Assembly (NCBI GenBank): GCA_015487985.1
Contig: WFOP01000041.1
Coordinates: 1 to 12,874, forward strand
Length of the DNA stretch: 12,874 bases
Direction of reading: 5' to 3'
DNA from: Hyphomicrobiales bacterium
GTDB lineage: Bacteria > Pseudomonadota > Alphaproteobacteria > Rhizobiales > Devosiaceae
Shown here: piece by piece, positions 94 through 12,874 of the stretch
Numbering within the stretch: position 1 is the stretch's first letter
Layout of the letters: each line of letters starts with the position of its first letter
The notes under the pieces: generated by a model
Databases searched by the model: none
The model's input: the letters and a program-made list of their open reading frames with translations, nothing else
Told to the model about the DNA's origin: nothing
Position numbers and translations under genes: made by a program

Positions 94-493
94 TGCAAGG
101 CATCGGGTATTTGCCATGCCTGCCTCAAATGGGCGTTATTGCCGGTTCATGGGGCCAGCAAATTATAAATTCGACGAAAGCGGCGCAAGGTGCCGGAGTT
201 CCTTTGGCCATCGGTTCGGCTGCCAAATTGAATGGCTGGTTGAGGACAAATAACGGTTGGCCAACGGGTAAAAACAATGGAATCAGGAACTGGCAAAAGT
301 GGTCCACGAGCAAAATACACGTTTTGTACGGGCGATAATCCGCCGCTGTCATGCCACTGATTTGCTCACATTTGTCCATGCTTTCAGATGCCTTGGCAAA
401 AATCCGTCATTCAAGCCCATCTGCTCTTTTCAAGTTCACATATTTGCTTTAGTTAACGCTGAAATACAGTGAGAAAACCTGCGTTCTTTGCGT
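94..493. other. Non-coding gap between upstream gene and sugar cluster
   Basis: About 400 bases with no convincing gene. Short open frames exist on both strands (+ 93-338; - 125-379), but their peptides lack recognisable domains and overlap each other. No hairpin followed by a T run is seen after the upstream stop. A GGCAT/ATGCC pair (99-103 and 116-120) has a 12-base loop and no T tract. A promoter for the sugar cluster should lie here if the cluster is not read through from upstream. The AT-richer stretch at about 428-470 is the likeliest place, but I see no -35/-10 pair good enough to call. Confidence 0.5.
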
Positions 494-1516
494 ATGTTTC
501 CAAAAGCAAAAGCCTTGAACAATATGAACGATCTTCCTCAAATTTCAGTTGCAGTTATCGGGTGTGGCCACTGGGGTAAAAACCTGGTGCGTAATTTCAG
601 TGAGCTTGGAGCGCTAAAAGCAGTTTCTGACCCGGACCCTGCAATACAAAATGCGATGCGGGAAACGTATAACATTCCAGCGCGCGAAATTGGTGATATT
701 TTTGGGGATGCCACAATTGATGCCGTGGTTATTGCCGCCCCCGCTGAGATGCACCACCAGGTGGCGCTTGAGGCTCTGGAGGCCGGCAAACATGTGTTCG
801 TGGAAAAGCCTGTCACCCTGACCATGGAGCATGCACGCGAATTGTGTGATGTGGCGGAGCGGACAAAAAAAACATTGATGGTGGGGCATTTGCTTCAATA
901 TCACCCCGCGTTTCTCAAATTAAAACAAATGGTTCGGGCCGGGGAACTTGGCAAAATCCGTTACATTTATTCGCGGCGTTTAAGTATTGGCAAATTGCGC
1001 GTGCATGAAAATGTTCTGTGGAGTTTTGCCCCCCATGATATTTCAATGATTCTTGCGCTTGCCGGACAGGCTCCCGATCAGGTGGTGGGATTTTCAGGGA
1101 ATTTCCTGCAACCGTCAATTAGCGATTTTGCCAGCGTGCAGATGTCATTTGAAAATGGCATCAAGGCCCATGTGGAAGTGTCCTGGCTCAATCCTACCAA
1201 GGAGCAACGTCTGGTTATTGTGGGTGAAAAAGGCTCGGTCATATTTGATGATCAGGCAGACTGGCCGGAGAAACTTGTGATGTATCGCCATCGCGCAGAA
1301 ATTGTGGATGGCGCACCGGTTCTGGAAAAAGCTGACGCGACACCTATAGATGTCGCGCCGGGCGAGCCGCTTCGTAACGAGTGCACGCATTTCCTGAAAT
1401 TCTGCCAAACCGGGGAAACTCCCTATACCGATGGACGTGAAGCCATGGCGGTTCTCAAGGTTTTGCAGGACGGGGACGCAGGGGAGAACGTTTGGACAGG
1501 TGTATCGGTTCAGTGA
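494..1516 (+). CDS. wbpB: Gfo/Idh/MocA sugar-nucleotide 3-dehydrogenase (WbpB/WlbA-like)
   Basis: Predicted cytoplasmic NAD-dependent oxidoreductase, 340 residues from ATG 494. An N-terminal Rossmann fold shows the dinucleotide loop GCGHWG at residues 23-28. The Gfo/Idh signature EKP is at 104-106 (VFVEKPVTL), and the active-site 'W..APHDIS' motif has His181 and Asp182. By family knowledge, WbpB oxidises C3 of UDP-N-acetylglucosaminuronic acid to the 3-keto sugar, which WbpE then aminates. That role is supported here by the adjoining WbpD-, WbpE- and WbpA-like genes. It is somewhat longer than the roughly 316 residues usual for WbpB. The start is uncertain: neither ATG 494 nor the in-frame ATG 524 has a clear Shine-Dalgarno, and 524 would put the Rossmann strand at the more usual distance from Met1. 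A run of eight A lies at 865-872. It overlaps the next gene. Confidence 0.85.
1481..1486 (+). promoter_or_regulatory. Shine-Dalgarno supporting a TTG start
   Basis: GGGGAG lies five bases before TTG 1492, inside the end of the preceding gene. It argues for the TTG start of the acetyltransferase over the downstream GTG at 1513, which overlaps the preceding stop as GTGA but has only a distant purine stretch (GGACAGG, about 12 bases away). Confidence 0.45.
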
Positions 1517-2097
1517 GTGCAGGTTCAAACAATTATATCCACGAAAGCACTTATATAGACGAGGGGTGCGAGATTGGTGAGGGCACCAGGATCTGGCATT
1601 TTTGCCACGTTATTTCGGGCACAAAAATCGGCAAAAACTGCTCCCTTGGTCAAAATGTCATGGCCGGGCCCGATGTTTCAATCGGTGATAATTGCAAAAT
1701 CCAGAATAATGTTTCGCTGTATAATGGTGTAACTCTGGAGGATAATGTTTTTTGTGGTCCCTCATGTGTTTTTACCAATGTGCTCACACCGCGCGCCGGC
1801 ATCGAGCGCAAGGATGAGTTCGCCCGCACACTGGTGAAAAAGGGAGCTACGATCGGGGCCAATGCCACCATTGTTTGTGGCAATGATCTGGGGCGCTACT
1901 GCACGATTGGGGCCGGGGCCGTCGTGACAGAAAATGTACCTGATTTTGCGCTGATGGTGGGGGTGCCCGCCCGCCGCATCGGTTGGGTCAGCAAATCAGG
2001 GGATATACTTGACGATATGCTTGTTTGCCCACGCACCGGCGAGCGGTATCAGGAAACACCAACCGGGCTGAAACCAATTGAGAAAGCTGGAACATGA
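1492..2097 (+). CDS. wbpD: UDP-3-amino sugar N-acetyltransferase, left-handed beta-helix (WbpD-like)
   Basis: 201-residue hexapeptide-repeat acetyltransferase. Repeats of the I/V-G-x-x pattern run through most of the protein ([24 protein letters not shown], then [15 protein letters not shown]). The ending [16 protein letters not shown] and the middle [17 protein letters not shown] are close to what I know of WbpD/WlbB, which acetylates the 3-amino group of UDP-GlcNAc(3N)A from acetyl-CoA to give UDP-2,3-diacetamido-2,3-dideoxyglucuronate. Length fits (WbpD is about 190 residues). The TTG start at 1492 is chosen for its GGGGAG Shine-Dalgarno; GTG 1513 is the alternative. The gene overlaps its upstream neighbour by up to 25 bases and the next by four (ATGA), indicating translational coupling. 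A conserved catalytic His is expected near residue 130 in the family, but I did not place it with certainty here. Confidence 0.9.
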
Positions 2098-3218
2098 ACA
2101 ATATTCAATTTATTGATTTGCAGGCACAGCGGGCCTATTTGGGCACAAAAATTGATGATGCCATGGCGCGCGTGTTGGAACACGGTCGCTTCATCATGGG
2201 GCCGGAAATAAAAACACTTGAGGCAAATCTTTGTGCATTTGGCAAGGTCGAGCGCACGGTTTCCTGCTCCAACGGCACCGACGCCATTTCCCTGCCATTG
2301 ATGGCCTGGGGCATCGGGCCGGGGGACGCGGTTTTTGTGCCCAGCTTTACCTTTGCCGCCACGGCGGAAGTTGTTGCTCTTACCGGTGCAACGCCGGTTT
2401 TTGTCGATATTCTGCCCGATACTTTCAACATGGATCCCGCCCATTTGGAATTGGCCATTGCTGATGTTAATCGCGAGGGGAAATTTACGCCCAAAGTAAT
2501 AATAGCTGTGGATCTTTTCGGGCAAATTGCGGATTATCCTGCCCTTAAAAATATAGCAGATGCCAACGGATTAAAGCTCATCTCAGACGCGGCACAGGGC
2601 TATGGCTCCTCCCTTGATGGCAAACAGGCCGGGCATTGGGCCGATGTGGTCACGACAAGTTTCTTCCCGGCCAAACCTTTGGGCTGTTATGGTGATGGGG
2701 GTGCTGTTCTCACCAATGACGCGCAACTGGCCGACATCATGGAAAGCCTGCGCGTACACGGCAAAGGCAGCGACAAGTATGACAATGTGCGCATTGGTCT
2801 GAATGCGCGGCTGGATACCCTGCAGGCGGCAATTCTTATTGAAAAGCTCAATATATTTGGCGAAGAAATTGAAAAGCGCAACGTTATTGCTGCGCGTTAT
2901 GCCCGCGAACTTGGGGATTACGTGAAGGTGCCGACGGTTCTTGAGGGAGCAATTTCAACCTGGGCACAATATACCATCACCGCAACAGACCGGGAGCAAA
3001 AGCAGGCCGCTCTCAAAGAGGCGGGCATTCCCACGGCGGTTTATTATTCCAAACCCCTGCATCAACAAACCGCCTATATGAATTACCCTCAAGGGGGAAA
3101 CGGCCTGCCTGTTTCAGATCGCCTGGCCACACAGGTGTTTTCGCTGCCGATGCACCCCTATATGGATGAAGAAACGCAAACCTATATCATTGAAAACGTA
3201 AAACGAATTTTTGGCTAA
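2094..3218 (+). CDS. wbpE: PLP-dependent UDP-3-keto-sugar aminotransferase (WbpE-like, DegT/DnrJ/EryC1)
   Basis: 374-residue fold-type I aminotransferase. The PLP-anchoring lysine is Lys194 in [15 protein letters not shown], the diagnostic WbpE/WlbC form of the motif. Asp165 in ISDAAQGYG should bind the pyridine nitrogen, and SNGTDAIS (59-66) forms part of the phosphate-binding site. By family knowledge it transfers the amino group of glutamate to C3 of the 3-keto-UDP-GlcNAcA made by WbpB, yielding the substrate of the WbpD acetyltransferase just upstream. In P. aeruginosa WbpB and WbpE work as a coupled pair because 2-oxoglutarate from WbpE reoxidises the WbpB cofactor; adjacency here fits that. 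The start ATG overlaps the preceding stop (ATGA). Confidence 0.92.
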
Positions 3219-3234
3219 CAGGCAAAGCAACATC

Positions 3235-4593
3235 ATGGAAAACCAAACAGTGTCTAATGAAACCATCCGTCAGTTTGGCGAAAAACTCGAACAACGTAAA
3301 ACAACTATTGCCATCATTGGGTTGGGCTATGTTGGGTTGCCGCTTATTCTGGGGTTTAACAATGTGGGGTTCAATGTAGTTGGCTTTGATATCAATCAGG
3401 AACTGGTTGACGAACTTAACAGCGGCAAAAGCCGGATTGCCCATATTGGTTCTGAAAAAGTTCAGGCAATGGTCGATTCCGGTCGTTTTTCCGCGACAAC
3501 GGATTTTTCCAAAATTGTCGATGCCGACGCTATTCTGATTTGTGTGCCAACGCCGCTAAATGCCTATCGTGAGCCGGACCTTTCCTATATCAGGGCAACG
3601 GCTAAAAATATCGCCCCCCATATTAAAAAGGGGCAGATTGTTATACTGGAATCCACCACTTATCCGGGAACAACCCGCGAAGTTTTGTTGCCAATTCTGG
3701 CTGAGGGAAGCGGCCTTGCCGGGGACAGGGATTTCTTCGTTGCGTTTTCGCCGGAACGCGAAGACCCCGCAAATCCTGATTTTGACACGACAACGATTCC
3801 CAAAGTCGTGGGGGCCGCCACCCCCGAGGGGGAAGAAAATGCAGCGGCTCTTTATGAAACCCTGATCAATAAGGTGGTCCGCGTTTCAAGTCCTGATACG
3901 GCGGAAGCGGTTAAGCTGACCGAGAATATTTTCCGAGCAGTCAATATCGCCTTGGTCAATGAGCTTAAACTGATTTATGATGACATGGGGATTGATGTCT
4001 GGGAAGTTATCGACGCCGCCGCCACCAAACCTTTTGGCTTCATGCCGTTTTATCCCGGTCCGGGACTGGGGGGACATTGTATTCCCATCGATCCGTTTTA
4101 CCTGACATGGAAAGCGCGTGAATTTGGCCGCCACACCCGCTTTATCGAACTGGCGGGCGAAATCAATGCCGATATGCCCGAGCATGTGATTGGCAAGCTT
4201 TCAGTGGCATTGAGCAAGCACCAGAAGAAGGCCTTGAACGGCTCTAGAGTTCTGATCGTGGGGATTGCCTACAAAAAAAATGTGGACGATATGCGCGAAA
4301 GTCCCTCGCTGGTGTTGATGGAACTGTTACAGGAACACGGGGCGGAAGTGGACTATTTTGACCCCTATATTCCCGTTTTTCCACCAACCCGTGAGCACGC
4401 AGAATGGGCCGGCATGAAGTCAATCGAATTTTCGCCTGAAACATTGGCGGGGTATGATGCCGCAATAATTGCCACAGAACATTCAAATATCGAATGGCAA
4501 ACTCTGGTGGACAATCTTGATCTGATCGTTGATACGCGCAATGCTCTAAAAGATATTGTTCCGGGGGGAGACGGAATCGTCATCAAGGCGTAG
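3235..4593 (+). CDS. wbpA: UDP-N-acetylglucosamine 6-dehydrogenase (WbpA-like)
   Basis: 452-residue UDP-sugar dehydrogenase from ATG 3235, which leaves a 16-base gap after the aminotransferase; a TTG at 3211 would overlap it and is less likely. The N-terminal NAD domain has IGLGYVGLP (residues 28-36). The middle domain has Lys227 in EAVKLTEN. The catalytic cysteine is Cys282 in GPGLGGHCIPIDP, which forms the thioester intermediate in this family. The C-terminal UDP-binding domain follows, including GIAYKKNVDDMRESPS. The enzyme oxidises C6 of a UDP-HexNAc to the carboxylate with two NAD+. The KPFGFMPFYPGPGLGGHC form and the neighbouring wbpB-D-E set point to UDP-GlcNAc rather than UDP-Glc or UDP-GalNAc as substrate. 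It should catalyse the first step of the pathway although it is the last gene of the block. A run of eight A lies at 4273-4280. Confidence 0.9.
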   Translation: MENQTVSNETIRQFGEKLEQRKTTIAIIGLGYVGLPLILGFNNVGFNVVGFDINQELVDELNSGKSRIAHIGSEKVQAMVDSGRFSATTDFSKIVDADAILICVPTPLNAYREPDLSYIRATAKNIAPHIKKGQIVILESTTYPGTTREVLLPILAEGSGLAGDRDFFVAFSPEREDPANPDFDTTTIPKVVGAATPEGEENAAALYETLINKVVRVSSPDTAEAVKLTENIFRAVNIALVNELKLIYDDMGIDVWEVIDAAATKPFGFMPFYPGPGLGGHCIPIDPFYLTWKAREFGRHTRFIELAGEINADMPEHVIGKLSVALSKHQKKALNGSRVLIVGIAYKKNVDDMRESPSLVLMELLQEHGAEVDYFDPYIPVFPPTREHAEWAGMKSIEFSPETLAGYDAAIIATEHSNIEWQTLVDNLDLIVDTRNALKDIVPGGDGIVIKA

Positions 4594-4693: not shown

Positions 4694-6526
4694 ATGGGAC
4701 ACCTGTTGCAAAACTTATGGAACCGGCTGGCGCCAAAAACAGAGAGTTATCTGACGGGTTTGCTTGCATTAGCATCGCCGCTGGCCCTGATTGTCATTGG
4801 CTTTTTTTTCATCAGGCATTTTAATCGGGCTTTTGACCTGACGGATGAGAGCTTTTACATTCTAAACGCTCAGGACCCGTTCAGTTTGTCATTGCGACTC
4901 TTTGATTTCGGGTACTATTTGCAGCCCTTGTGGAATCTGGTGTCCCAGGACATTTACTATTTCCGTCTGTTGGGACTGATAGTTCTAGGGGTGAGCGCTG
5001 CCATTCTGGCCTGTTCTTTGATCAGGCTTCTTGATGTGCTTGAAATTCAATTGGAAAAACTGACAAAATTGTCGCTGGTGGCGGCAATGGTTGTGGGGGG
5101 CTGGATGTATTACAGCCCCTGGCTGTTGTCTCCGGGGTATAACTGGATGGCACTTGTCGCTATCGCCCTGAGTGTCGCCAGCTTGTCCTCCTATTCCGCC
5201 ACGGCCATATCCAACCCCTCAAAACCGGCATGGACGCCCTTGATCGGGTTGGGGATTTTTGGGGCACTTACATTTTTTGCCAAACCGCCATCTGCGGTAT
5301 TTCTGGGCCTTGTTGCCGTGATCTGGATCATGTTTTTCCCTTCGCCCCACAGGGTGGGGCAAAAAATTCAGCACATTATGATTGCGCTGTTTTTTGCCCT
5401 CGTGATGCTGTTGATAAATTTTGTTTTTGTTACCGAGGGGATTGAAACAGCGATTGCCGAATATACGCTGGCATATGAAATTTTTAACAATATCAAGGGT
5501 TACCAGTCGAGTTCGTTTTTTATTCAATACCAGTATATTGCGCGCAACATCTTCAATATGATCCGGGACGATAAAGTCTTTCTTGTTCTGGCAGTTCTGT
5601 CCCTCGTCATGAACTTGATCGGGCGCAAGCAATTCTGGTTCCGCTTTGCACTTTTTATTTTTGCGGCCAACGCGATTGTGACGCTGATAATGACCGGGGC
5701 ACCGGTTGCCCAGAGATATGGCGATTTCCTGCTGACCATGACGGCCCAATACCTGATTTTGGCTTTGATTTTAAGCGAGCATAAAAACCGGAAAACAGGT
5801 CTGCTGGTTTTTTCGATACTGGTGACATTCACCTTCGCATTTCATTTTGGCACCGGGAGTGCAAATGCGTTTCACTTTGCAATCGGATTCTTGTTTTTTG
5901 CCGGCGCCATCGTCGTAAGCAGCGCTGTATTTGCCCCCACCCCAAGCGTAAACTATGCAGTTCGGATAACTTCGGTATTGGTCGTTGTCGCTTCTGTTAT
6001 CGGGATTTCCGCCGGCGTTCGAGAGCCCTACCGGCAAAAGGCGAGCATTTGGGAACTTACACAGCCCATCGAGATAATTCAGGGCACAACACCTCTGCTG
6101 GTCAGGCCTGAACAAAAAGAATATATGCAAACTTTGAGAACCGGTGCATTTGCCAATGGTTGGCTAGCAGGTGAAAGCCTGTTGGACATGACAGGAATTC
6201 GCCCCGGCATTACATTGTTGCTTGGGGGGCATCCACCGGCGGTCAAATGGCTTCCGCTCCAGGCAAATGTGCCCACCCGGACTTTGGCTTCGGTGCTGAA
6301 TGCACTCCCACCTGACGAATTGGCCAACTCATGGATATTATATGCGCCCGATGCTGCGGAAAACTCGCGTGTATCGAGTGAAGTTCTGGATTTGATTGGC
6401 TTGAGCTTCCCAATCAACTTTCGTAAAGTCGCTCACTTTGGCGGCCATGAGCTCTGGCGCCCGTGTGTCCATGCAGACAGCACCTTGCCCGAGGTGGAAA
6501 ATTGCTCGGTGAATGAAAATGATTAA
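4694..6526 (+). CDS. Multi-pass membrane protein, probable GT-C glycosyltransferase (ArnT/PMT-like)
   Basis: 610 residues from ATG 4694, with about 11-12 hydrophobic segments (roughly 20-40, 92-112, 127-147, 150-170, 183-212, 226-247, 295-310, 317-335, 345-360, 368-386, 393-413, 423-441). A soluble tail of about 165 residues (442-610) is probably periplasmic. The first outer loop holds LTDESFYIL with Asp51-Glu52, the position and 'DE..Y' pattern of the catalytic acid of ArnT/PMT-family GT-C enzymes, which take a sugar from a polyprenyl-phosphate donor. SPGYN (146-150) is a further notable loop motif. No closer family is recognised, so acceptor and sugar are unknown. The start is uncertain: the TTTGGAG before ATG 4694 has no spacing, while it would sit about 12 bases before TTG 4706. 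The gene overlaps the next one by 14 bases. An eight-T run lies at 4802-4809. Confidence 0.65.
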   Translation: MGHLLQNLWNRLAPKTESYLTGLLALASPLALIVIGFFFIRHFNRAFDLTDESFYILNAQDPFSLSLRLFDFGYYLQPLWNLVSQDIYYFRLLGLIVLGVSAAILACSLIRLLDVLEIQLEKLTKLSLVAAMVVGGWMYYSPWLLSPGYNWMALVAIALSVASLSSYSATAISNPSKPAWTPLIGLGIFGALTFFAKPPSAVFLGLVAVIWIMFFPSPHRVGQKIQHIMIALFFALVMLLINFVFVTEGIETAIAEYTLAYEIFNNIKGYQSSSFFIQYQYIARNIFNMIRDDKVFLVLAVLSLVMNLIGRKQFWFRFALFIFAANAIVTLIMTGAPVAQRYGDFLLTMTAQYLILALILSEHKNRKTGLLVFSILVTFTFAFHFGTGSANAFHFAIGFLFFAGAIVVSSAVFAPTPSVNYAVRITSVLVVVASVIGISAGVREPYRQKASIWELTQPIEIIQGTTPLLVRPEQKEYMQTLRTGAFANGWLAGESLLDMTGIRPGITLLLGGHPPAVKWLPLQANVPTRTLASVLNALPPDELANSWILYAPDAAENSRVSSEVLDLIGLSFPINFRKVAHFGGHELWRPCVHADSTLPEVENCSVNEND

Positions 6527-8090
6527 TGAAAGAAACTGGAGATACAAAGATAATTTAATTGTTGCCGGTTTGTTTTTTCTCGCATTGGCATTCTGGGTGA
6601 TTGCCCGTGCATCCAGCCCCAAAATCGACATTTGGGATGCTCTGGAATATCTTAATGCCGGTTACAGTTACATTTTGCACGGAACCTCCATGCCCGGCAT
6701 GATCCGTATTGGTGTGTTTGAAGAATTGGGGGCGTTTCCAGTTAATGTGGTTGAGTATCCCAATACTCTTTTTTCGGTTTTGGTCGGTGCGCTTTCAATA
6801 TTCTTCTTTGAATACCCCACCCAGATTCCCGCCTTTGTTCTTGCTGCCGTTTTTTCCGCGATTGGTGTTGCCAGTTTGTATGTTCTGGCCAGAAAGTATT
6901 TGTCGATAAATTCCAGTTTGCTCTTTGTGCTGGCCGCAACAGTATCGCCCCTGCTGTGGCATTCACTTGCCAGACCGCTGACGGACCCTGTGGCATGGGG
7001 CCTGTTGTTTTTTTCAGCCGCATATGCAGTGTCAAATAATCGCAAAACAGTGGTCGTTGCCTTTCTTCTGACGGCGCTCATACTTGTTCGGTTTCCGATG
7101 TTTGTCGTTATTCCATTTTTTCCTCTGCTGATGATGAAAACCCGTTCATTGCGCTCTTTGGCCGTGCAATTTGCCACGCTTGTTATCTGGATTGCGCTGT
7201 TTTATCTGGCTTATGGCCTGATATTCAATGCGGTTTTTCTTCCCAATCAGGACACCCGGAGTCTGGACAATGCGGCATCATTCTATACATCTTTTGCGGC
7301 AAATTCCCTTGGCAGGTTGTCCATTGAAAATATTTTATGGCAAGTCGGTCATGTGTTTTCTCTTATAATAAAATTCAGTATTGGCGGCCCGTTGGCACTG
7401 TATCTGATCGCCGGTATCTGGGGGTTGGTCAGCATTTGGGAGAAAAAAAACAGCCGTGTTTTTGTGACACTGATATTTTTGTTTCTCGTCGGTTTGATTA
7501 TAATTGCGGTGCCGTCTGCCTATTTGGCATACAGAACATGGCTGGGGATTGATCCCAGATATTTCATCTATGCCACACCGTTTTTTGCCCTTGCCGCATG
7601 GCTGGCTTTTGATCAAATTCGCAGCGCGCGCCCCAAACTTGCAGGCACACTTGAAATTGGTTCGTGCATATTGGCGATTTTTGCAATTCCATTTGCAATG
7701 ACCTCTCCCCAGGGGGAACGATATTTTTCCAACCTGCCATCCCCGAAAAGCTTTGTGGCGGCTGTTACAGCAAGTGATTTGCAGGATGTTTATGACAACG
7801 CGCAAACATGGTTTGGCGCCGATCCGGTTATTGTGACGAATTTCAATTCCGCAGGGATAAATTCAAAATCCAGAACAGCAATTTATGTTCCTGAAATAAA
7901 AACATTTCAGGAAAGCCCGGTTGCCAGCCAAATAGATGGGATAGTCGTTACAAACCTGAACGGAACAGACTGGGATGTTGAGCGGGTCTGCACGGTGGAT
8001 GATACGTGTTTTGAGCGGGTTTACACATCTGAGAATGCACACTTTTTTGCATTTCGGCGCGACAGTCGCGCCAGTATTGAGCAAGAGTAG
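6513..8090 (+). CDS. Second multi-pass membrane protein, probable GT-C glycosyltransferase
   Basis: 525 residues with about ten or eleven hydrophobic segments (roughly 14-31, 85-99, 107-127, 133-150, 160-174, 178-203, 217-238, 277-305, 315-335, 350-366, 381-397) and a soluble C-terminal part of about 125 residues. The first outer loop has KIDIWDALEYLNAG with Asp39, Asp42 and Glu45, a GT-C-like acidic position. LARPLTDPVAW (152-162) and DPRYFIYATPFFAL (347-360) are patterns common in this superfamily. It has the same general architecture as the preceding gene but little evident sequence identity, so it is a separate enzyme rather than a recent duplicate. It starts inside the preceding gene (14-base overlap), implying co-translation. 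By context it transfers a lipid-linked sugar in the periplasm; acceptor unknown. An eight-A run lies at 7443-7450. Confidence 0.65.
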   Translation: MKMINERNWRYKDNLIVAGLFFLALAFWVIARASSPKIDIWDALEYLNAGYSYILHGTSMPGMIRIGVFEELGAFPVNVVEYPNTLFSVLVGALSIFFFEYPTQIPAFVLAAVFSAIGVASLYVLARKYLSINSSLLFVLAATVSPLLWHSLARPLTDPVAWGLLFFSAAYAVSNNRKTVVVAFLLTALILVRFPMFVVIPFFPLLMMKTRSLRSLAVQFATLVIWIALFYLAYGLIFNAVFLPNQDTRSLDNAASFYTSFAANSLGRLSIENILWQVGHVFSLIIKFSIGGPLALYLIAGIWGLVSIWEKKNSRVFVTLIFLFLVGLIIIAVPSAYLAYRTWLGIDPRYFIYATPFFALAAWLAFDQIRSARPKLAGTLEIGSCILAIFAIPFAMTSPQGERYFSNLPSPKSFVAAVTASDLQDVYDNAQTWFGADPVIVTNFNSAGINSKSRTAIYVPEIKTFQESPVASQIDGIVVTNLNGTDWDVERVCTVDDTCFERVYTSENAHFFAFRRDSRASIEQE

Positions 8091-8094
8091 GGGG
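8089..8094 (+). promoter_or_regulatory. Shine-Dalgarno supporting a TTG start
   Basis: AGGGGG overlaps the stop of the preceding gene (TAG 8088-8090) and lies eight bases before TTG 8103. No ATG or GTG lies near the right place before the first hexapeptide repeat, so this site decides the unusual start of the second acetyltransferase. Confidence 0.5.
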
Positions 8095-8102
8095 AAGCAG
8101 CT

Positions 8103-8606
8103 TTGAGCGCGGACAACCAGAATATTTCATCGACAGTTGAACTGGGAGAAGGGGTCGTTATTTTCAAACCATCCCTCGTCAATCTGTATGGTTGTTCAAT
8201 CGGAAGTTTTACCACCATTGGGCCTTTTGTTGAAATTCAGGCAGGGGTTAAAGTTGGCAAAAATTGCAAGATATCTTCACATTCATTCCTGTGTGAGGGC
8301 ATAACGCTGGAAGCGGGGGTTTTCATCGGACATGGGGTTATGTTTACCAACGACCGTCTCCCCCAGGCAGTCAATGCGGATGGCTCGCAAAAGGGTAAGG
8401 GGGATTGGAAACTTGAATATACCCATGTGGGGCGCAATGCGTCTCTTGGCTCGGGGTGCGTAATCCTGCCCGGCATTTCCATTGGTGAAGGGGCTATCGT
8501 TGGGGCAGGGGCTGTGGTTACAAAGGATGTCAAAGCGTTTGGGGTTGTTGCGGGAAATCCGGCAAAACTGATCAGCGTTTCAAAAGCAGGGCGGATCGAC
8601 AAATGA
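8103..8606 (+). CDS. Second hexapeptide-repeat acyltransferase (sugar N-acetyltransferase-like)
   Basis: 167-residue left-handed beta-helix protein with repeats from about residue 12 to 150 ([24 protein letters not shown], then [16 protein letters not shown]) and the closing [10 protein letters not shown] loop typical of acetyl-CoA-dependent sugar acyltransferases. The insertion beginning [15 protein letters not shown] is the form seen in the FdtC/QdtC/WbpD group that acylates 3-amino sugars. It differs clearly from the first acetyltransferase, which has [10 protein letters not shown] at that place, so a different substrate is likely. The natural candidate is the amino sugar produced by the oxidoreductase/aminotransferase pair further downstream. 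TTG start supported by AGGGGG. ATGA overlap with the next gene. O-acetylation cannot be excluded from sequence alone. Confidence 0.8.
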
Positions 8607-8965
8607 CAGCCAACGGGTTTCTCTTTTTGCTGATTGCAGGACTGATGACTGCTGTGGGTAATTTGTTGTTACGTCATGGGGCAACGACATTGCCGCCATT
8701 TCAGTTCAACCTCGTATTTTTGACTCAGGTTTTACAAAATGCATATTTTGTCGGCGGGGTTTTTCTGTATGGCGCAGCCCTGCTGCCCTGGATGAATGTT
8801 ATCGCAAAGAATGATCTCTCGATTTCTTATCCCATGCTTGTCGGCCTGACATTTTTGCTGGTGACAGGGGGGGCATTTTACTTTTTCGACGAAGGTTTCA
8901 GCTTTCAGAAAATACTGGGAATTTTAATAATTGCGACCGGAATTCTGCTGGTCGCAAAATCATAA
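8603..8965 (+). CDS. Small four-helix membrane protein, ArnE/ArnF-like (SMR/EamA superfamily)
   Basis: 120 residues with four hydrophobic segments (about 4-22, 36-64, 74-92 and 101-118), the size and layout of SMR-type proteins. [18 protein letters not shown] (third helix) and the fourth helix [14 protein letters not shown] match the EamA/SMR pattern. The membrane glutamate essential for proton-coupled drug export in EmrE (Glu14, helix 1) has no counterpart: helix 1 reads [13 protein letters not shown]. This argues against a drug pump and for the ArnE/ArnF type, which is thought to help flip undecaprenyl-phosphate-aminoarabinose. Its position among GT-C and ArnC-like genes supports a role in moving a polyprenyl-phosphate sugar across the inner membrane. 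It starts with an ATGA overlap. Confidence 0.75.
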
Positions 8966-9047
8966 TTCAAAGGGCCGGACAGCGTCCTGAAAAACAATAT
9001 ACATCGACAGCGTGTCGAGAGATAGTACAAGGAGTTTAGTAACAATT
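8966..9047 (+). promoter_or_regulatory. Intergenic segment with two copies of GACAGCGT in small palindromes
   Basis: GACAGCGT occurs at 8978-8985 and 9006-9013, 28 bases apart. The first copy is the core of GGAC-AGC-GTCC (8977-8987). The second is the core of TCGACA-GCG-TGTCGA (9004-9018). Between them is a weak -10-like TATACA (8998-9003) without a clear -35. Neither hairpin has a T run, so they are not terminators. They could be a paired operator or a small leader structure, or chance. Confidence 0.25.
9029..9034 (+). promoter_or_regulatory. Shine-Dalgarno of the second oxidoreductase
   Basis: AAGGAG is the strongest ribosome-binding match in the area, 13 bases before ATG 9048. The spacing is long, but the upstream GTG 9012 lies before this site, so ATG 9048 is the better start. 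Confidence 0.45.
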
Positions 9048-10067
9048 ATGCCAACTAGCACAGTATCAATTGGCGTCGTCGGGTATGGTTATTGGGGCCC
9101 CAATGTGTGCCGGAATTTCATGACGGCGCAAAACGCAAATCTTGTTTGTGTTGTGGACAAACTGGCGTCAAGACGAAAGGCGGCTGAGGCAAACTTGCCC
9201 GGAGTGCATGTCTCCGACAACTTTTCAGAACTGTTAAATGATAAAACAATTGATGCAATCGCGATTGTTACGCCGGTGGAAAGTCATTTTTCCCTGGCAA
9301 TGGCGTGTTTGAAGGCGGGCAAGCATGTCTGGGTTGAAAAACCTCTGGCAGCAACCAGTCAGGAGGCCGAGCGCCTTCTGGCTGAGGCGGACAGGCAGGG
9401 TAAACTAATCCATGTGGATCATACTTTTGTCTATACGGGGGCGGTGCGAAAGCTGAAAGAACTGATTGATCAGGATGCGCTGGGCAGGCTTTATTATTAT
9501 GATTCCATACGCGTGAACCTTGGCCTGTTTACCGATGATGTTGATGTGCTCTGGGATTTGGCCGTTCATGACATTTCCATTCTGAGTTATCTCATTTCCA
9601 CTCCCCCCACGGCAGTGTCGGCTCAAGGGGTGGCCCATTTTGAAGGGCGCCGGGCCAATACTGCCTTTATGACGCTTTATTACCCGGATAATTTTGTGGC
9701 CCACATCAATGCCAACTGGCTTTCCCCCATCAAGATTCGACAGACATTGTTGGCCGGTGAGAAGAAAATGGCAGTCTATAACGATCTGGACCCGGTGGAA
9801 AAAGTAAAGATTTTTGACAGCGGTGTGCAGATGTCAGGAGACAAGTCGGAAGTTTACAACACAAATGTTGATTACCGTGTTGGTGATATCTGGGTGCCAA
9901 AACTCTCAATCAGAGAGGCTTTGTCACTGGAGACCGAGCACTTTGTTGATTGCATAATAAACAACAAAAAAAGTGAAACCGATGGTCTGGCCGGCCTTGA
10001 TACGGTACGCATACTCGAAGCAACATCCAAATCCCTCGCCGCAAACGGGGTGCCACAGGAAATTTAA
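9048..10067 (+). CDS. Second Gfo/Idh/MocA sugar-nucleotide oxidoreductase
   Basis: 339 residues from ATG 9048 (a GTG at 9012 would add 12 that look unrelated to the fold). The Rossmann loop is GYGYWG at residues 12-17, the EKP motif is at 97-99 (VWVEKPLAAT), and VLWDLAVHDISIL carries His174 and Asp175. It therefore belongs to the same WbpB/WlbA/GnnA-like branch that oxidises C3 of nucleotide sugars. It is only distantly similar to the first oxidoreductase of the cluster. It sits three bases upstream of a DegT aminotransferase, the arrangement of GnnA-GnnB (UDP-GlcNAc to UDP-GlcNAc3N for lipid A) and of WbpB-WbpE. The exact substrate cannot be told: UDP-GlcNAc, UDP-GlcNAcA or another NDP-hexose are possible. 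Confidence 0.85.
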   Translation: MPTSTVSIGVVGYGYWGPNVCRNFMTAQNANLVCVVDKLASRRKAAEANLPGVHVSDNFSELLNDKTIDAIAIVTPVESHFSLAMACLKAGKHVWVEKPLAATSQEAERLLAEADRQGKLIHVDHTFVYTGAVRKLKELIDQDALGRLYYYDSIRVNLGLFTDDVDVLWDLAVHDISILSYLISTPPTAVSAQGVAHFEGRRANTAFMTLYYPDNFVAHINANWLSPIKIRQTLLAGEKKMAVYNDLDPVEKVKIFDSGVQMSGDKSEVYNTNVDYRVGDIWVPKLSIREALSLETEHFVDCIINNKKSETDGLAGLDTVRILEATSKSLAANGVPQEI

Positions 10068-10070
10068 GAT

Positions 10071-11180
10071 ATGACAGTTCCCTATCTCGATATGAAAGCG
10101 CAGTTCAATGAGTTGCGCGCTGAAATAATGCCGGAAATTCTAAGCGTTCTGGAAAACAGCCAGTTTATTCTCGGGCCGAAAGTTTCTGCATTCGAAACGG
10201 CGTTTGCCGCCTTTTGTGGCACGAATTATGCAGTCGGGGTGAATAGCGGAACCGCTGCCTTGCAGATGGCCCTGACGGCTGCCGATATTGGGCCGGGCGA
10301 CGAGGTTATTACCACCTCCATGACCTTTATGGCGACAATCGCCGCCATTCTTTACGTCGGTGCAACTCCTGTATTGGTTGACATTGCCCCCCATTCGTTC
10401 ACGATGGATCCTTCACTGATCGAGCAAAAAATCACGCCGCGCACGCGCGCCATCATTCCCGTTCACTTGTATGGGCAAATGGCGGATATGCAGGTGATCA
10501 GCCAAATCGGGCAAAAGCATAATCTCCTGATAATTGAAGATGCCGCTCAGGCCCATGGCGCGCGCTGGCAGGGAAAAGAAGCCGGCTCCTGGGGCGCAAT
10601 GGGATGCTTCAGCTTCTATCCGGGCAAAAATCTGGGGGCGTTTGGGGAGGCCGGTGCCGTAGTGACCAGCGACAAAAACTATCTGGAAAGAATGCAGTGC
10701 CATCGGGATTGGGGGCAAAAGGGGAAAGGCAATCATGTTCTTGCCGGGTTTAATGCGCGCATGGATGGTGTACAGGGAGCGGTTTTGGGCGTAAAATTGC
10801 GGCACCTGGAACGCTGGACAAATCGTCGTCGTCAAATCGCTGCCCTTTATAATGAGCTTTTGAAGGATTGTGCCTCAATCCGGTTGCCCGCCGAGCATCC
10901 CGACGCCGTGCATGTTTATCATGTATATTCCATTCAGCATGAAAACCGGGATGCCTTGCGCGCGGAGCTGGCCAACCGTGATATTGCAACCGGCATTCAC
11001 TATCCGGTTCCGGTTCATAAAATGCCCTGCTATAAAGGTGAAAATTTTGCCCGTACGTCACTCCCTGATACAGAGAAATTATCAGCCACACAAATGTCAT
11101 TGCCGATCTGCCCCATGATGAGCGATGATCAGGTGGTGGAAGTAAGCCAGGCAATCATTGAAATTTCAGGCTCAGATTGA
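10071..11180 (+). CDS. Second PLP-dependent sugar aminotransferase (DegT/DnrJ/EryC1)
   Basis: 369-residue fold-type I aminotransferase. PLP lysine is Lys186 in SFYPGKNLGAFGEAG, pyridine-binding Asp157 is in IEDAAQAHGA, and VNSGTAAL (57-64) is part of the phosphate-binding loop. The GKNLGAFGEAG form is the general one of 3-keto and 4-keto sugar aminotransferases (FdtB, QdtB, GnnB and relatives). It differs from the [12 protein letters not shown] form of the first aminotransferase, so the two are not recent duplicates. It starts three bases after the second oxidoreductase, which should supply its keto substrate. Its product, a 3-amino sugar nucleotide, is a candidate substrate for the second acetyltransferase or the formyltransferase. 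Its 3' end overlaps the convergent formyltransferase by nine bases. Confidence 0.88.
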   Translation: MTVPYLDMKAQFNELRAEIMPEILSVLENSQFILGPKVSAFETAFAAFCGTNYAVGVNSGTAALQMALTAADIGPGDEVITTSMTFMATIAAILYVGATPVLVDIAPHSFTMDPSLIEQKITPRTRAIIPVHLYGQMADMQVISQIGQKHNLLIIEDAAQAHGARWQGKEAGSWGAMGCFSFYPGKNLGAFGEAGAVVTSDKNYLERMQCHRDWGQKGKGNHVLAGFNARMDGVQGAVLGVKLRHLERWTNRRRQIAALYNELLKDCASIRLPAEHPDAVHVYHVYSIQHENRDALRAELANRDIATGIHYPVPVHKMPCYKGENFARTSLPDTEKLSATQMSLPICPMMSDDQVVEVSQAIIEISGSD

Positions 11181-12143
11181 TTTGCCGGACAGGCGCAAAT
11201 GGATTGAATTGAAAATCTTGCGGGGTGAGGTGTGTTGCCTGTCCTGCGCCATCTGAACTTTGTCAACAATCAGAGCTGTGTTTTGGCCACATGCGATTGT
11301 GACTTCAGGGTGCCCGCGCATGAGAATTTGCCCCGGGGTGCCCATATAAGGATGCTCAAAAACCCGCGAACTGAGCAGAATGACTTTTTGTTCCCCCACC
11401 ATCGTAAATGCACCGGGGTAAGGCGGTGCCTGGGCGCGGATGAAATTGTGTATTTGTGTGGCGGTTTGTTGCCAGTTGACCATGCCATCATTAGGGTTGC
11501 GAGGGCCGCAATAGGTTGCCTGGGCTTCATCCTGAATCTCAAATTTGATGGCGCCGCTCAGCAGTTGTTGCCAAACCGCCGGCAGTTCTGCCACACATTT
11601 GTTTTCCAGCTTTTGTAATATCTGGGCGATTGTTTCGTGCGGCCCCACTGAAACCGGAAATCTGGCTGCAATAACGCCATCGTCCATGCCCTGGCTGAAC
11701 CGGAATAAACTGATTCCCACCCTGGATTCACCTGCCATAATCGCCCACACAAGGGGCGCGCTGCCCCTGTATTTTGGCAACAGGCTGTTGTGCATGCCAT
11801 AAATTCCATGTGGGACCATTTCCAGTGTGGAATTATCCAGCAACCAGTACCAGCCGCAAGCAAAGGCAATATCGGGTTTGCATCGCGCCATTTCCTGCCT
11901 GGTTTCTTTTGCGTCCCCAACAACAACAAATTCTATGTTTTTTTTAGCGCAATAGTCGCTGAAATCCTTGGCAATGCTTCGTTCGTCGTGCCGGTCATTA
12001 CCATGTAGAACTGTCCAGTATATATCAGGCGCCGCATCCACAATACTTTGCAGCACACGCAATCCCAGAGCTTTGCTGCCCAAAAATACGGCGTTTTTTA
12101 TTTTGTTTGTCTGGGCCATGTTGGACAAGTTACGCACATCCAT
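11172..12143 (-). CDS. Sugar N-formyltransferase (methionyl-tRNA formyltransferase superfamily)
   Basis: 323 residues. The N-terminal formyl_trans_N domain has the early strand NAVFLGSKALG (residues 17-27) and the signature MHNSLLPKYRGSAP (117-130) with catalytic His118. Asp154 in GMDDGVIA aligns with the catalytic Asp of ArnA. The Asn that precedes the catalytic His by two positions in FMT and ArnA is Gly116 here. A C-terminal FMT_C-like segment follows (GMVNWQQTATQIHNFIRAQ..PYPGAF, about 220-246). Enzymes of this type transfer a formyl group from N10-formyl-tetrahydrofolate to an amine. In a polysaccharide cluster, and because housekeeping fmt normally sits beside def, the acceptor is more likely an amino sugar nucleotide than Met-tRNA. 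The start is uncertain: ATG 12119 (MAQTNK) gives a more usual length, and neither start has a Shine-Dalgarno. It is transcribed against the rest of the cluster. Confidence 0.8.
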   Translation of the reverse strand: MDVRNLSNMAQTNKIKNAVFLGSKALGLRVLQSIVDAAPDIYWTVLHGNDRHDERSIAKDFSDYCAKKNIEFVVVGDAKETRQEMARCKPDIAFACGWYWLLDNSTLEMVPHGIYGMHNSLLPKYRGSAPLVWAIMAGESRVGISLFRFSQGMDDGVIAARFPVSVGPHETIAQILQKLENKCVAELPAVWQQLLSGAIKFEIQDEAQATYCGPRNPNDGMVNWQQTATQIHNFIRAQAPPYPGAFTMVGEQKVILLSSRVFEHPYMGTPGQILMRGHPEVTIACGQNTALIVDKVQMAQDRQHTSPRKIFNSIHLRLSGKSI

Positions 12144-12565
12144 GAATTATTCAACACTAATCACAAATTGGATCAACAAGCGATTACCCAACATGGGGGG
12201 AAGGCCAATTCGGGCAATTTATTTTGACAGTTTCGGGCAGGCTTGCCCTATCCCTCGAGATAGGAGCCTTGCTACATATGGGGGCGTATGCAGATTTGCA
12301 GCCATCGGATTGGCTTTAATAATTTTGAGAAAATCGCCGGTTTTTAAGGCTAAAATGACAAATTTGCGCATGAACTTCAAGGATTGTAATCCCAGAAACG
12401 AGTTGCATGTTCAAAAGCAATATTGTAGTCAGCTTTGGCATTGATTTTGGATTTGCCGTCTATGAATTGGCAAATCTGAAGGGAGGATTTGTCGCGGATA
12501 TTCGGGATTTTCATCTGACCAATTATGCCCAACTTCCGCCTGAACAGGTCAATTGAACAGCCAGA
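12144..12565. other. Divergent intergenic region, no clear complete gene
   Basis: About 420 bases between the - strand formyltransferase and the + strand GT2 gene. It should contain promoters for both. A weak - strand pair is GATCAA (12171-12176, reads TTGATC) and ATTATT (12146-12151, reads AATAAT), 19 bases apart; if real, it favours the formyltransferase start at 12119. No JUMPstart/ops-like element was recognised. The region also holds a 49-codon open frame (listed separately) and an upstream open stretch on the + strand from 12142 to 12444 with protein-like segments, possibly remnants of a decayed gene. Confidence 0.4.
12407..12556 (+). pseudogene. 49-codon open frame, possible remnant of a larger gene
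   Basis: ATG 12407 to TGA 12554-12556. The peptide begins MFKSNIVVSFGIDFGFAVYE, then has LKGGFVADIRDFH and ends PPEQVN. It has the composition of folded protein and ends nine bases before the first GT2 start. The NIVVSFGI piece resembles the opening strand of FkbM-like methyltransferases (SIVYSFGIG), and the other + frame upstream contains RAIYFDSFGQACPIPRDRS followed by a YGG, also loosely reminiscent. If so, the gene is frameshifted and lacks most of its methyltransferase domain. It has only a poor Shine-Dalgarno. It could equally be an unrelated small protein or chance; sequencing error near the contig end is also possible. Confidence 0.3.
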
Positions 12566-12853
12566 ATGAGTGACTGCGATATGCCAAATTCTCCGTTACT
12601 TTCTGTGATCACACCAGCCTATGAGGAAGAAGACAACCTTCATGAAATGCATGAACGGTTGTGCCGGGTGCTGGAGGGGGCCAATTTAAGTTTCGAGTGG
12701 ATAATTGTCGATGATTGTTCGGGGGATAAAACCTATGCTGTCGCCCGGGAGATTGCCGCGGGCGATCCTCGGGTGAAAATACTTCGCCTTGCAAGAAATT
12801 TTGGCTCCCATGCAGCAATCCTGTGCGGTCTTTCCAAATGCCGGGGCCACAAT
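12566..12853 (+). CDS. GT2 glycosyltransferase, ArnC/GtrB/DPM1-like, truncated by contig end
   Basis: The first 96 residues of a GT-A fold glycosyltransferase, running off the contig. LLSVITPAYEEEDNL (11-25) is the nucleotide-binding first strand, IIVDDCSGDKT (46-56) carries the first acidic pair Asp49-Asp50, and LRLARNFGSHAAILCGLS (73-90) is the diagnostic segment of polyprenyl-phosphate sugar transferases (ArnC, GtrB, DPM1). Such enzymes transfer a sugar from a nucleotide donor to polyprenyl phosphate at the cytoplasmic face, making the donor used by GT-C enzymes after flipping. The usual C-terminal pair of membrane helices would lie beyond the contig. An in-frame ATG at 12581 is an alternative start. 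The last seven codons that could be read (12854-12874) are adapter and are excluded. Confidence 0.85.
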
Positions 12854-12874
12854 CTGTCTCTTATACACATCTCC
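12854..12874 (+). other. Sequencing adapter (Tn5/Nextera mosaic end) at contig terminus
   Basis: CTGTCTCTTATACACATCT (12854-12872) is identical to the 19-base Tn5 mosaic end used in Nextera libraries. The following CC matches the start of one of the two Nextera transposon adapters. It is untrimmed library adapter, not genomic sequence and not a transposon insertion. Translated on the + strand it adds the artefactual LSLIHIS to the GT2 protein; on the - strand it begins a false frame reading MYKRQ. Confidence 0.97.

Follow-up and report, generated by a model that had tools for sequence, protein, structure and literature searches.

A candidate three-component glycosylation module with its own formylated amino-sugar pathway in a Hyphomicrobiales bacterium

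We analyzed a stretch of 12,874 nucleotides from a Hyphomicrobiales bacterium of the Devosiaceae (assembly GCA_015487985.1, contig WFOP01000041.1, here C41), referred to below as the window. It is a whole contig of a genome assembled in 402 contigs and 83% complete. With confidence just short of even, we read the genes from position 4694 onward as a three-component module for extracytoplasmic glycosylation (undecaprenyl-phosphate (Und-P) sugar, flippase and GT-C glycosyltransferase) that has its own sugar pathway. The sugar is probably a 4-formamido sugar that also carries a 3-acetamido group, as judged from the enzymes encoded. The machinery resembles known kinds; the genes that would make the sugar form a combination that is new to us.

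Gene content of the joined locus

The features of the window are listed here, with TM1 denoting the first transmembrane segment.

4694–6526, + strand: GT-C1, predicted 610-amino-acid polytopic glycosyltransferase, RxFDxxDExxY motif after TM1
6513–8090, + strand: GT-C2, putative second GT-C, polytopic, 525 amino acids, TM1 followed by D-x-W-D-x3-Y
8103–8606, + strand: Hex2, hexapeptide acyltransferase, proposed N-acetyltransferase (top solved match 7s43, 73.7 bits)
8603–8965, + strand: SMR-type four-helix protein, ArnE/ArnF-like, proposed Und-P-sugar flippase (PF00893 24.9 bits, just over the cut-off of 23.7)
9012–10067, + strand: Gfo2, Gfo/Idh/MocA oxidoreductase, proposed sugar 3-dehydrogenase (149.9 bits with NF040723, UDP-GlcNAc 3-dehydrogenase, under its cut-off of 450; the gene may instead start further in, near 9048)
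10071–11180, + strand: DegT2, proposed 3-aminotransferase (matches 7b0d, 2oga, QdtB and WbpE)
11172–12143, − strand: formyltransferase (FT), stand-alone ArnA-N-like sugar N-formyltransferase of 323 amino acids (ArnA 134 bits; HNSLLP motif)
12566–12853, + strand: GT2, first 96 of the 333 amino acids of a predicted polyprenyl-phosphate sugar transferase, remainder on contig C290
488–4593, + strand: neighbouring wbp-like set (WbpB/WlbA-, WbpD/WlbB-, WbpE- and WbpA-like)
12854–12874, no strand: adapter sequence, not genome

All genes that an earlier sequence-only reading had placed together are present, from 4694 to the start of GT2 at 12566. Junctions between 4694 and 11180 overlap or are 3–46 bases apart, as in an operon. 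The true genomic end of C41 is at 12853, where an overlap of exactly 48 bases with contig C290 stops; the 21 bases that follow are foreign and start with the 19-base motif of a transposase adapter. Because this adapter was left in place, the GT2 frame runs on falsely at the end of C41. The two contigs, read jointly, span 18.6 kb, and C290 holds the rest of GT2 followed, in the same direction, by an SDR, a third DegT (DegT3), a GT4 and one open frame that has no Pfam or NCBIfam match. The sugar oxidoreductase partner that seemed to be missing is thus a contig-end effect, because the SDR sits on C290.

Transfer machinery and its company in other genomes

Three-component glycosylation systems, as defined in PMC11127046, comprise a polyprenyl-phosphate sugar synthase, a flippase and a GT-C enzyme. 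Their features are recognizable here in a GtrB/ArnC/Dpm-like GT2, a small SMR-type flippase candidate and the GT-C fold of GT-C1. By sequence, GT2 is of the ArnC/GtrB/PgfS kind: its 253-amino-acid C290 part, the only part scanned, matches GtrB sll0501 (140 bits), PgfS (139 bits) and ArnC (99 bits), and reaches 111.9 bits with the ArnC profile NF007986 (cut-off 529). Two hydrophobic stretches are visible near its C terminus. The SMR protein, proposed from its sequence to flip the Und-P sugar, has ArnF (39.5 bits, cut-off 99) and ArnE (30.2 bits, cut-off 92) as its top NCBIfam profiles, both below cut-off. In its TM1 the 15 columns checked are free of acidic residues, as they are in its 15 relatives in the alignment, in agreement with the initial description of an ArnE-like four-helix protein that lacks the glutamate of EmrE.

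The structure model of GT-C1 has the GT-C fold (rows 1–45 of the 50 in the fold comparison), as had been suggested for both large membrane proteins. For GT-C2 this part of the suggestion stays putative, as its model (predicted local distance difference test score 37.8) is too poor for a fold search, and hhalign gave no match between GT-C2 and the GT-C1 family. Neither protein matches a Pfam family at E 0.1. Genes of the GT-C1 type were found in six genomes (G000, G503 with locus L065, G504 with the actinobacterial locus L043, G259, G236 and G601). The relatives in L065 and L043 match at E 6e-14 and 1e-8, respectively, the latter partially, over the N-terminal third of the profile only. An FT gene lies near the GT-C1-type gene in three of the six genomes, in L043 and L065 by construction, as these loci were reached via FT. 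An ArnC/GtrB-like GT2 is within the cluster in three (G000, G503 and G259) and on another contig in two. The distant relatives in L104 (G236), L109 (G601) and L103 (G259) form an orphan GT-C group.

We scanned the species genomes of GTDB with an alignment of the formyltransferase family, which confirmed 144 relatives; the best 80 loci were kept and annotated by six-frame profile annotation. These contain an SDR (55 loci), a DegT (62), two DegTs (34), a Gfo (27), a hexapeptide enzyme (35), an ArnC/GtrB-like GT2 (15) and an SMR protein (8). Each of the eight loci with an SMR protein also has such a GT2 (Fisher 2e-7, from lineages that are not independent, as seven are Bacillota and one, L026, is a beta-proteobacterium). 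Across the scanned loci, the neighbours of GT2 and SMR are not unrelated genes. Two DegTs occur in 11/15 GT2 loci vs. 23/65 others (p 0.01), and a Gfo in 9/15 vs. 18/65 (p 0.03). By visual inspection, eight of the 15 GT2 loci (L026, L037, L038, L046, L048, L050, L051 and L065) encode a large polytopic protein in which TM1 is followed by an acidic motif of the DD/DE type or a similar one; two of eight such membrane proteins scanned match GtrII (L034 and L046). Together with the fold of GT-C1 and the kind of GT2, the recurrence of SMR and GT2 with this formyltransferase family supports the Arn/Gtr-like, lipid-linked logic first proposed for the cluster.

Proteins of 239–260 amino acids with an RHDID motif and no Pfam match lie near FT and GT2 in four loci (L044:12223-13005, L050:6068-6805, L051:9410-10129 and L052:10930-11667); they are possible deacetylase-like partners. 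Locus L048 encodes, between its GT2 and SMR genes, a WbmS-like polysaccharide deacetylase (11954-12673; PF22537, 177.6 bits).

The sugar-making set and the site of formylation

In the DegT tree (103 rows) DegT3 clusters with enzymes of L043, L026 and L045 (100/99), and DegT2 with that of L043 (100/94), in a wider group that adds L045, L026 and L042. Gene trees place the SDR as sister to the L043 SDR (100/99) and Gfo2 with L045 and L043 (97/96). L043 is also the top blastp locus for the SDR, DegT2 and DegT3 (among 59, 63 and 63 loci with a match, respectively), and L045 for Gfo2 and Hex2. In L045 the genes are collinear, with short gaps, in the order Gfo-Hex-DegT-SDR-DegT-FT. We conclude that Gfo2, DegT2, SDR and DegT3 have evolved together as a set.

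Several observations weigh against our reading. The association of GT2 with Hex is weak (10/15 GT2 loci vs. 25/65 others, p 0.08), and none was found with the SDR (10/15 vs. 45/65, p 1.0). Seven of the eight SMR loci have two SMR genes where the window has one, SMR was not found in L043 or L065, and neither GT2 nor SMR is present in the 12 kb of L045 that were examined. The G504 genome gave no GT2 match; the GT-C1 relatives of G236 (on a 5.6-kb contig) and G601 (with a weak SDR-type match alone) are outside FT loci. For FT, L043 and L045 rank 25th and 27th, L043 ranks 29th for Hex2, and the nearest GT2 (L023, 44%) is in a locus without sugar genes. The FT of the window adjoins DegT2, not DegT3, on the opposite strand. 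Among solved structures, those closest to the SDR carry the name epimerase or epimerase/dehydratase (174 bits, compared with approximately 127 for the best RmlB), and in L045 and L065, too, the SDR resembles an epimerase. An ordinary polysaccharide locus with no single module, in which three amino-sugar sets feed separate residues of a repeat unit and GT2, SMR and GT-C add, e.g., glucose, would accommodate the wbp set and GT4 within the same 18.6 kb, the GT-C1 relative of L103 that adjoins GT2 yet has no FT within its 20 kb, and the loci nearest in FT (L020 and L021), which contain no other marker gene. Glucose is moreover the sugar carried by classical three-component systems (PMC11127046). 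We consider this explanation unlikely, given the ancestry that Gfo2, DegT2, SDR and DegT3 have in common with L043 and L045 and the company of GT2 and SMR in FT loci.

Which amine is formylated is indicated by the neighbours of FT. A DegT3-type enzyme adjoins FT in all three other loci of its clade (L043, L045 and L026), and the DegT2-type enzymes of L043, L045, L026 and L042 do not flank FT. FT most likely works behind the SDR and DegT3, and the formyl group is more likely to be on the 4-amine (SDR/DegT3) than on the 3-amine (Gfo2/DegT2), because a DegT3-clade enzyme flanks FT in three loci. The N-acylated or N-formylated 3-amino sugar of the sequence-only reading is kept as a probable 3-acetamido group, with the formyl group more likely at C4. 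The alternative, that FT formylates the 3-amine to give a 3-formamido sugar while the SDR and DegT3 serve another sugar, draws on the adjacency of DegT2, Gfo2 and FT in the window and on the sugar 3-N-formyltransferases among solved structures (WlaRD and the TDP-3-aminoquinovose enzyme). It is quite improbable in view of the FT neighbours, of the score of 134 bits for ArnA vs. 25–32 bits for 3-N-formyltransferases, and of a hexapeptide acyltransferase already available for the 3-amine.

The SDR contains the motif SSEVYG, the Glu of which is that of dehydratases and decarboxylases; among SDRs within 1.8 kb of FT it is present in 25 of 30, absent in three and unmatched in two. NCBIfam scores of the SDR, every one below cut-off, are 188 (LegB), 179 (RmlB), 146 (GalE) and 60 (ArnA). 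A closer copy of the 4-amino-4-deoxyarabinose (Ara4N) pathway is conceivable, in which UDP-GlcNAc(3NAc)A from the wbp-like set undergoes oxidative decarboxylation by the SDR, after which DegT3 and FT complete a 2,3-diacetamido-4-formamido pentose; the UDP-GlcNAc(3NAc)A set lies upstream (488–4593), the S-E motif is present in the SDR, UXS1 is among the SDR matches (118 bits), and 2,3,4-triacetamido-L-arabinose exists in Psychrobacter (PMC8040287). We regard this pentose as decidedly unlikely, as the SDR scores far higher with LegB and RmlB than with ArnA, a WbpA-like gene was not found in the stretches of L043 and L045 examined and occurs in 1/15 GT2 loci vs. 13/65 others (not significant, p 0.45), and the second Gfo/DegT/Hex set would be superfluous.

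For the 4-formamido, 3-acetamido sugar, with substrates, product, carrier and acceptor predicted from sequence, Gfo2 would oxidize a UDP-HexNAc at C3, DegT2 would aminate C3 and Hex2 would then acetylate the 3-amine. The SDR would form a 4-keto, probably 6-deoxy, sugar, which DegT3 would aminate at C4 and FT would formylate. GT2 would transfer the sugar onto Und-P, the SMR protein would flip it outward, and GT-C1, perhaps with GT-C2, would attach it to a polysaccharide in the periplasm, most probably the one that the surrounding locus makes. Lipid A as the target, which had been among the first suggestions, finds no support; the genes lie in a locus of polysaccharide type.

A radical SAM-motif protein of 309–327 amino acids is encoded in eight loci, all Bacillota (L044, L049, L050, L052, L053, L055, L084 and L095), with PF04055 and PF13186 in all three scanned. 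No SDR scoring at least 250 bits was found in these eight loci (Fisher 4e-5 over the 80 loci; 0.0014 within the 15 Bacillota loci), and all ten loci with a looser radical SAM motif are without such an SDR. On the simplest reading, the radical SAM protein would replace the C4-oxidizing enzyme in these loci, and BtrN-type dehydrogenation is a precedent.

Upstream, the wbp-like set is by its sequence for UDP-GlcNAc(3NAc)A, the pathway steps of which are described in PMC10622841. This complete set adjoins the second Gfo/Hex/DegT trio, and the single WbpA-like gene of the window (3211–4593) accompanies the first trio. Positions 1–93 are the remnant, 30 codons plus stop, of a gene truncated where the contig begins; no gene is assigned from there until 488. 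The 422 bases separating FT and GT2 (12144–12565) contain no recognizable gene; a 49-amino-acid frame at 12407–12556 matches no Pfam family.

Comparison with known systems and implications

The module, as proposed, would run through the same series of reactions as Arn (4-aminotransferase, N-formyltransferase, Und-P transferase, SMR flippase and GT-C). It differs in a stand-alone FT that is not fused to a decarboxylase as in ArnA (NF005998, 164 bits vs. a cut-off of 777), an SDR closer to the LegB/RmlB profiles than to ArnA, an extra Gfo/DegT/Hex set, a DegT3 under the ArnB cut-off (NF008658, 312 bits vs. 631) and an SMR protein under those of ArnE and ArnF. As initially noted, no ArnD-like deformylase was found: PF01522 has no match on C41 or C290, and the two matches in this 83% complete assembly are on C77 and C308. 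Because the joined 18.6 kb yielded no ArnD-like protein and the PF01522 matches are on other contigs, retention of the formyl group in the product is plausible. On these sequence comparisons the module appears to work like Arn and not to be a member of that pathway, because the ArnA, ArnB, ArnE and ArnF cut-offs are missed, ArnC was scored on a part only and the cluster yielded no ArnD.

Three-component systems (GtrABC; GT136 pentofuranose, PMC11127046; GtcA, PMC7389260) have the same three components; the module differs from them in a predicted pathway dedicated to a formylated amino sugar and in the lack of Pfam matches for GT-C1 and GT-C2. The Wbp/Wlb 3-acetamido pathway (PMC10622841) has the trio of 3-dehydrogenase, 3-aminotransferase and N-acetyltransferase, whereas the second trio of the window appears to be without its own 6-dehydrogenase and is accompanied by an SDR, a 4-aminotransferase and FT. 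A dehydratase-type SDR motif with a 4-aminotransferase is shared with the 4-amino-6-deoxy UDP-GlcNAc syntheses of the LegB/LegC and PglF/PglE type, from which the module differs in its presumed use of formyl instead of acetyl and of a lipid-phosphate carrier.

A bolder reading, which we find doubtful, is that of a cross-phylum Arn-like machine with an Und-P-linked 2,3-diacetamido-4-formamido-2,3,4,6-tetradeoxyhexose donor, a new GT-C family (GT-C1) and, in Bacillota, a radical SAM/SPASM protein instead of the SDR as the 4-keto maker; the Psychrobacter sugar (PMC8040287) is a precedent for its three amino groups. The analysis also brings to light orphan GT-C proteins for which Pfam has no model. 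If the proposal is true, the sugars known to be transferred from lipid-phosphate donors, namely glucose, galactose, pentofuranoses and Ara4N, would be joined by a formylated sugar, possibly with three amino groups. The signature of FT, SDR or radical SAM, paired DegT, GT2, SMR and GT-C could then serve to predict such surface glycans in distant bacteria.

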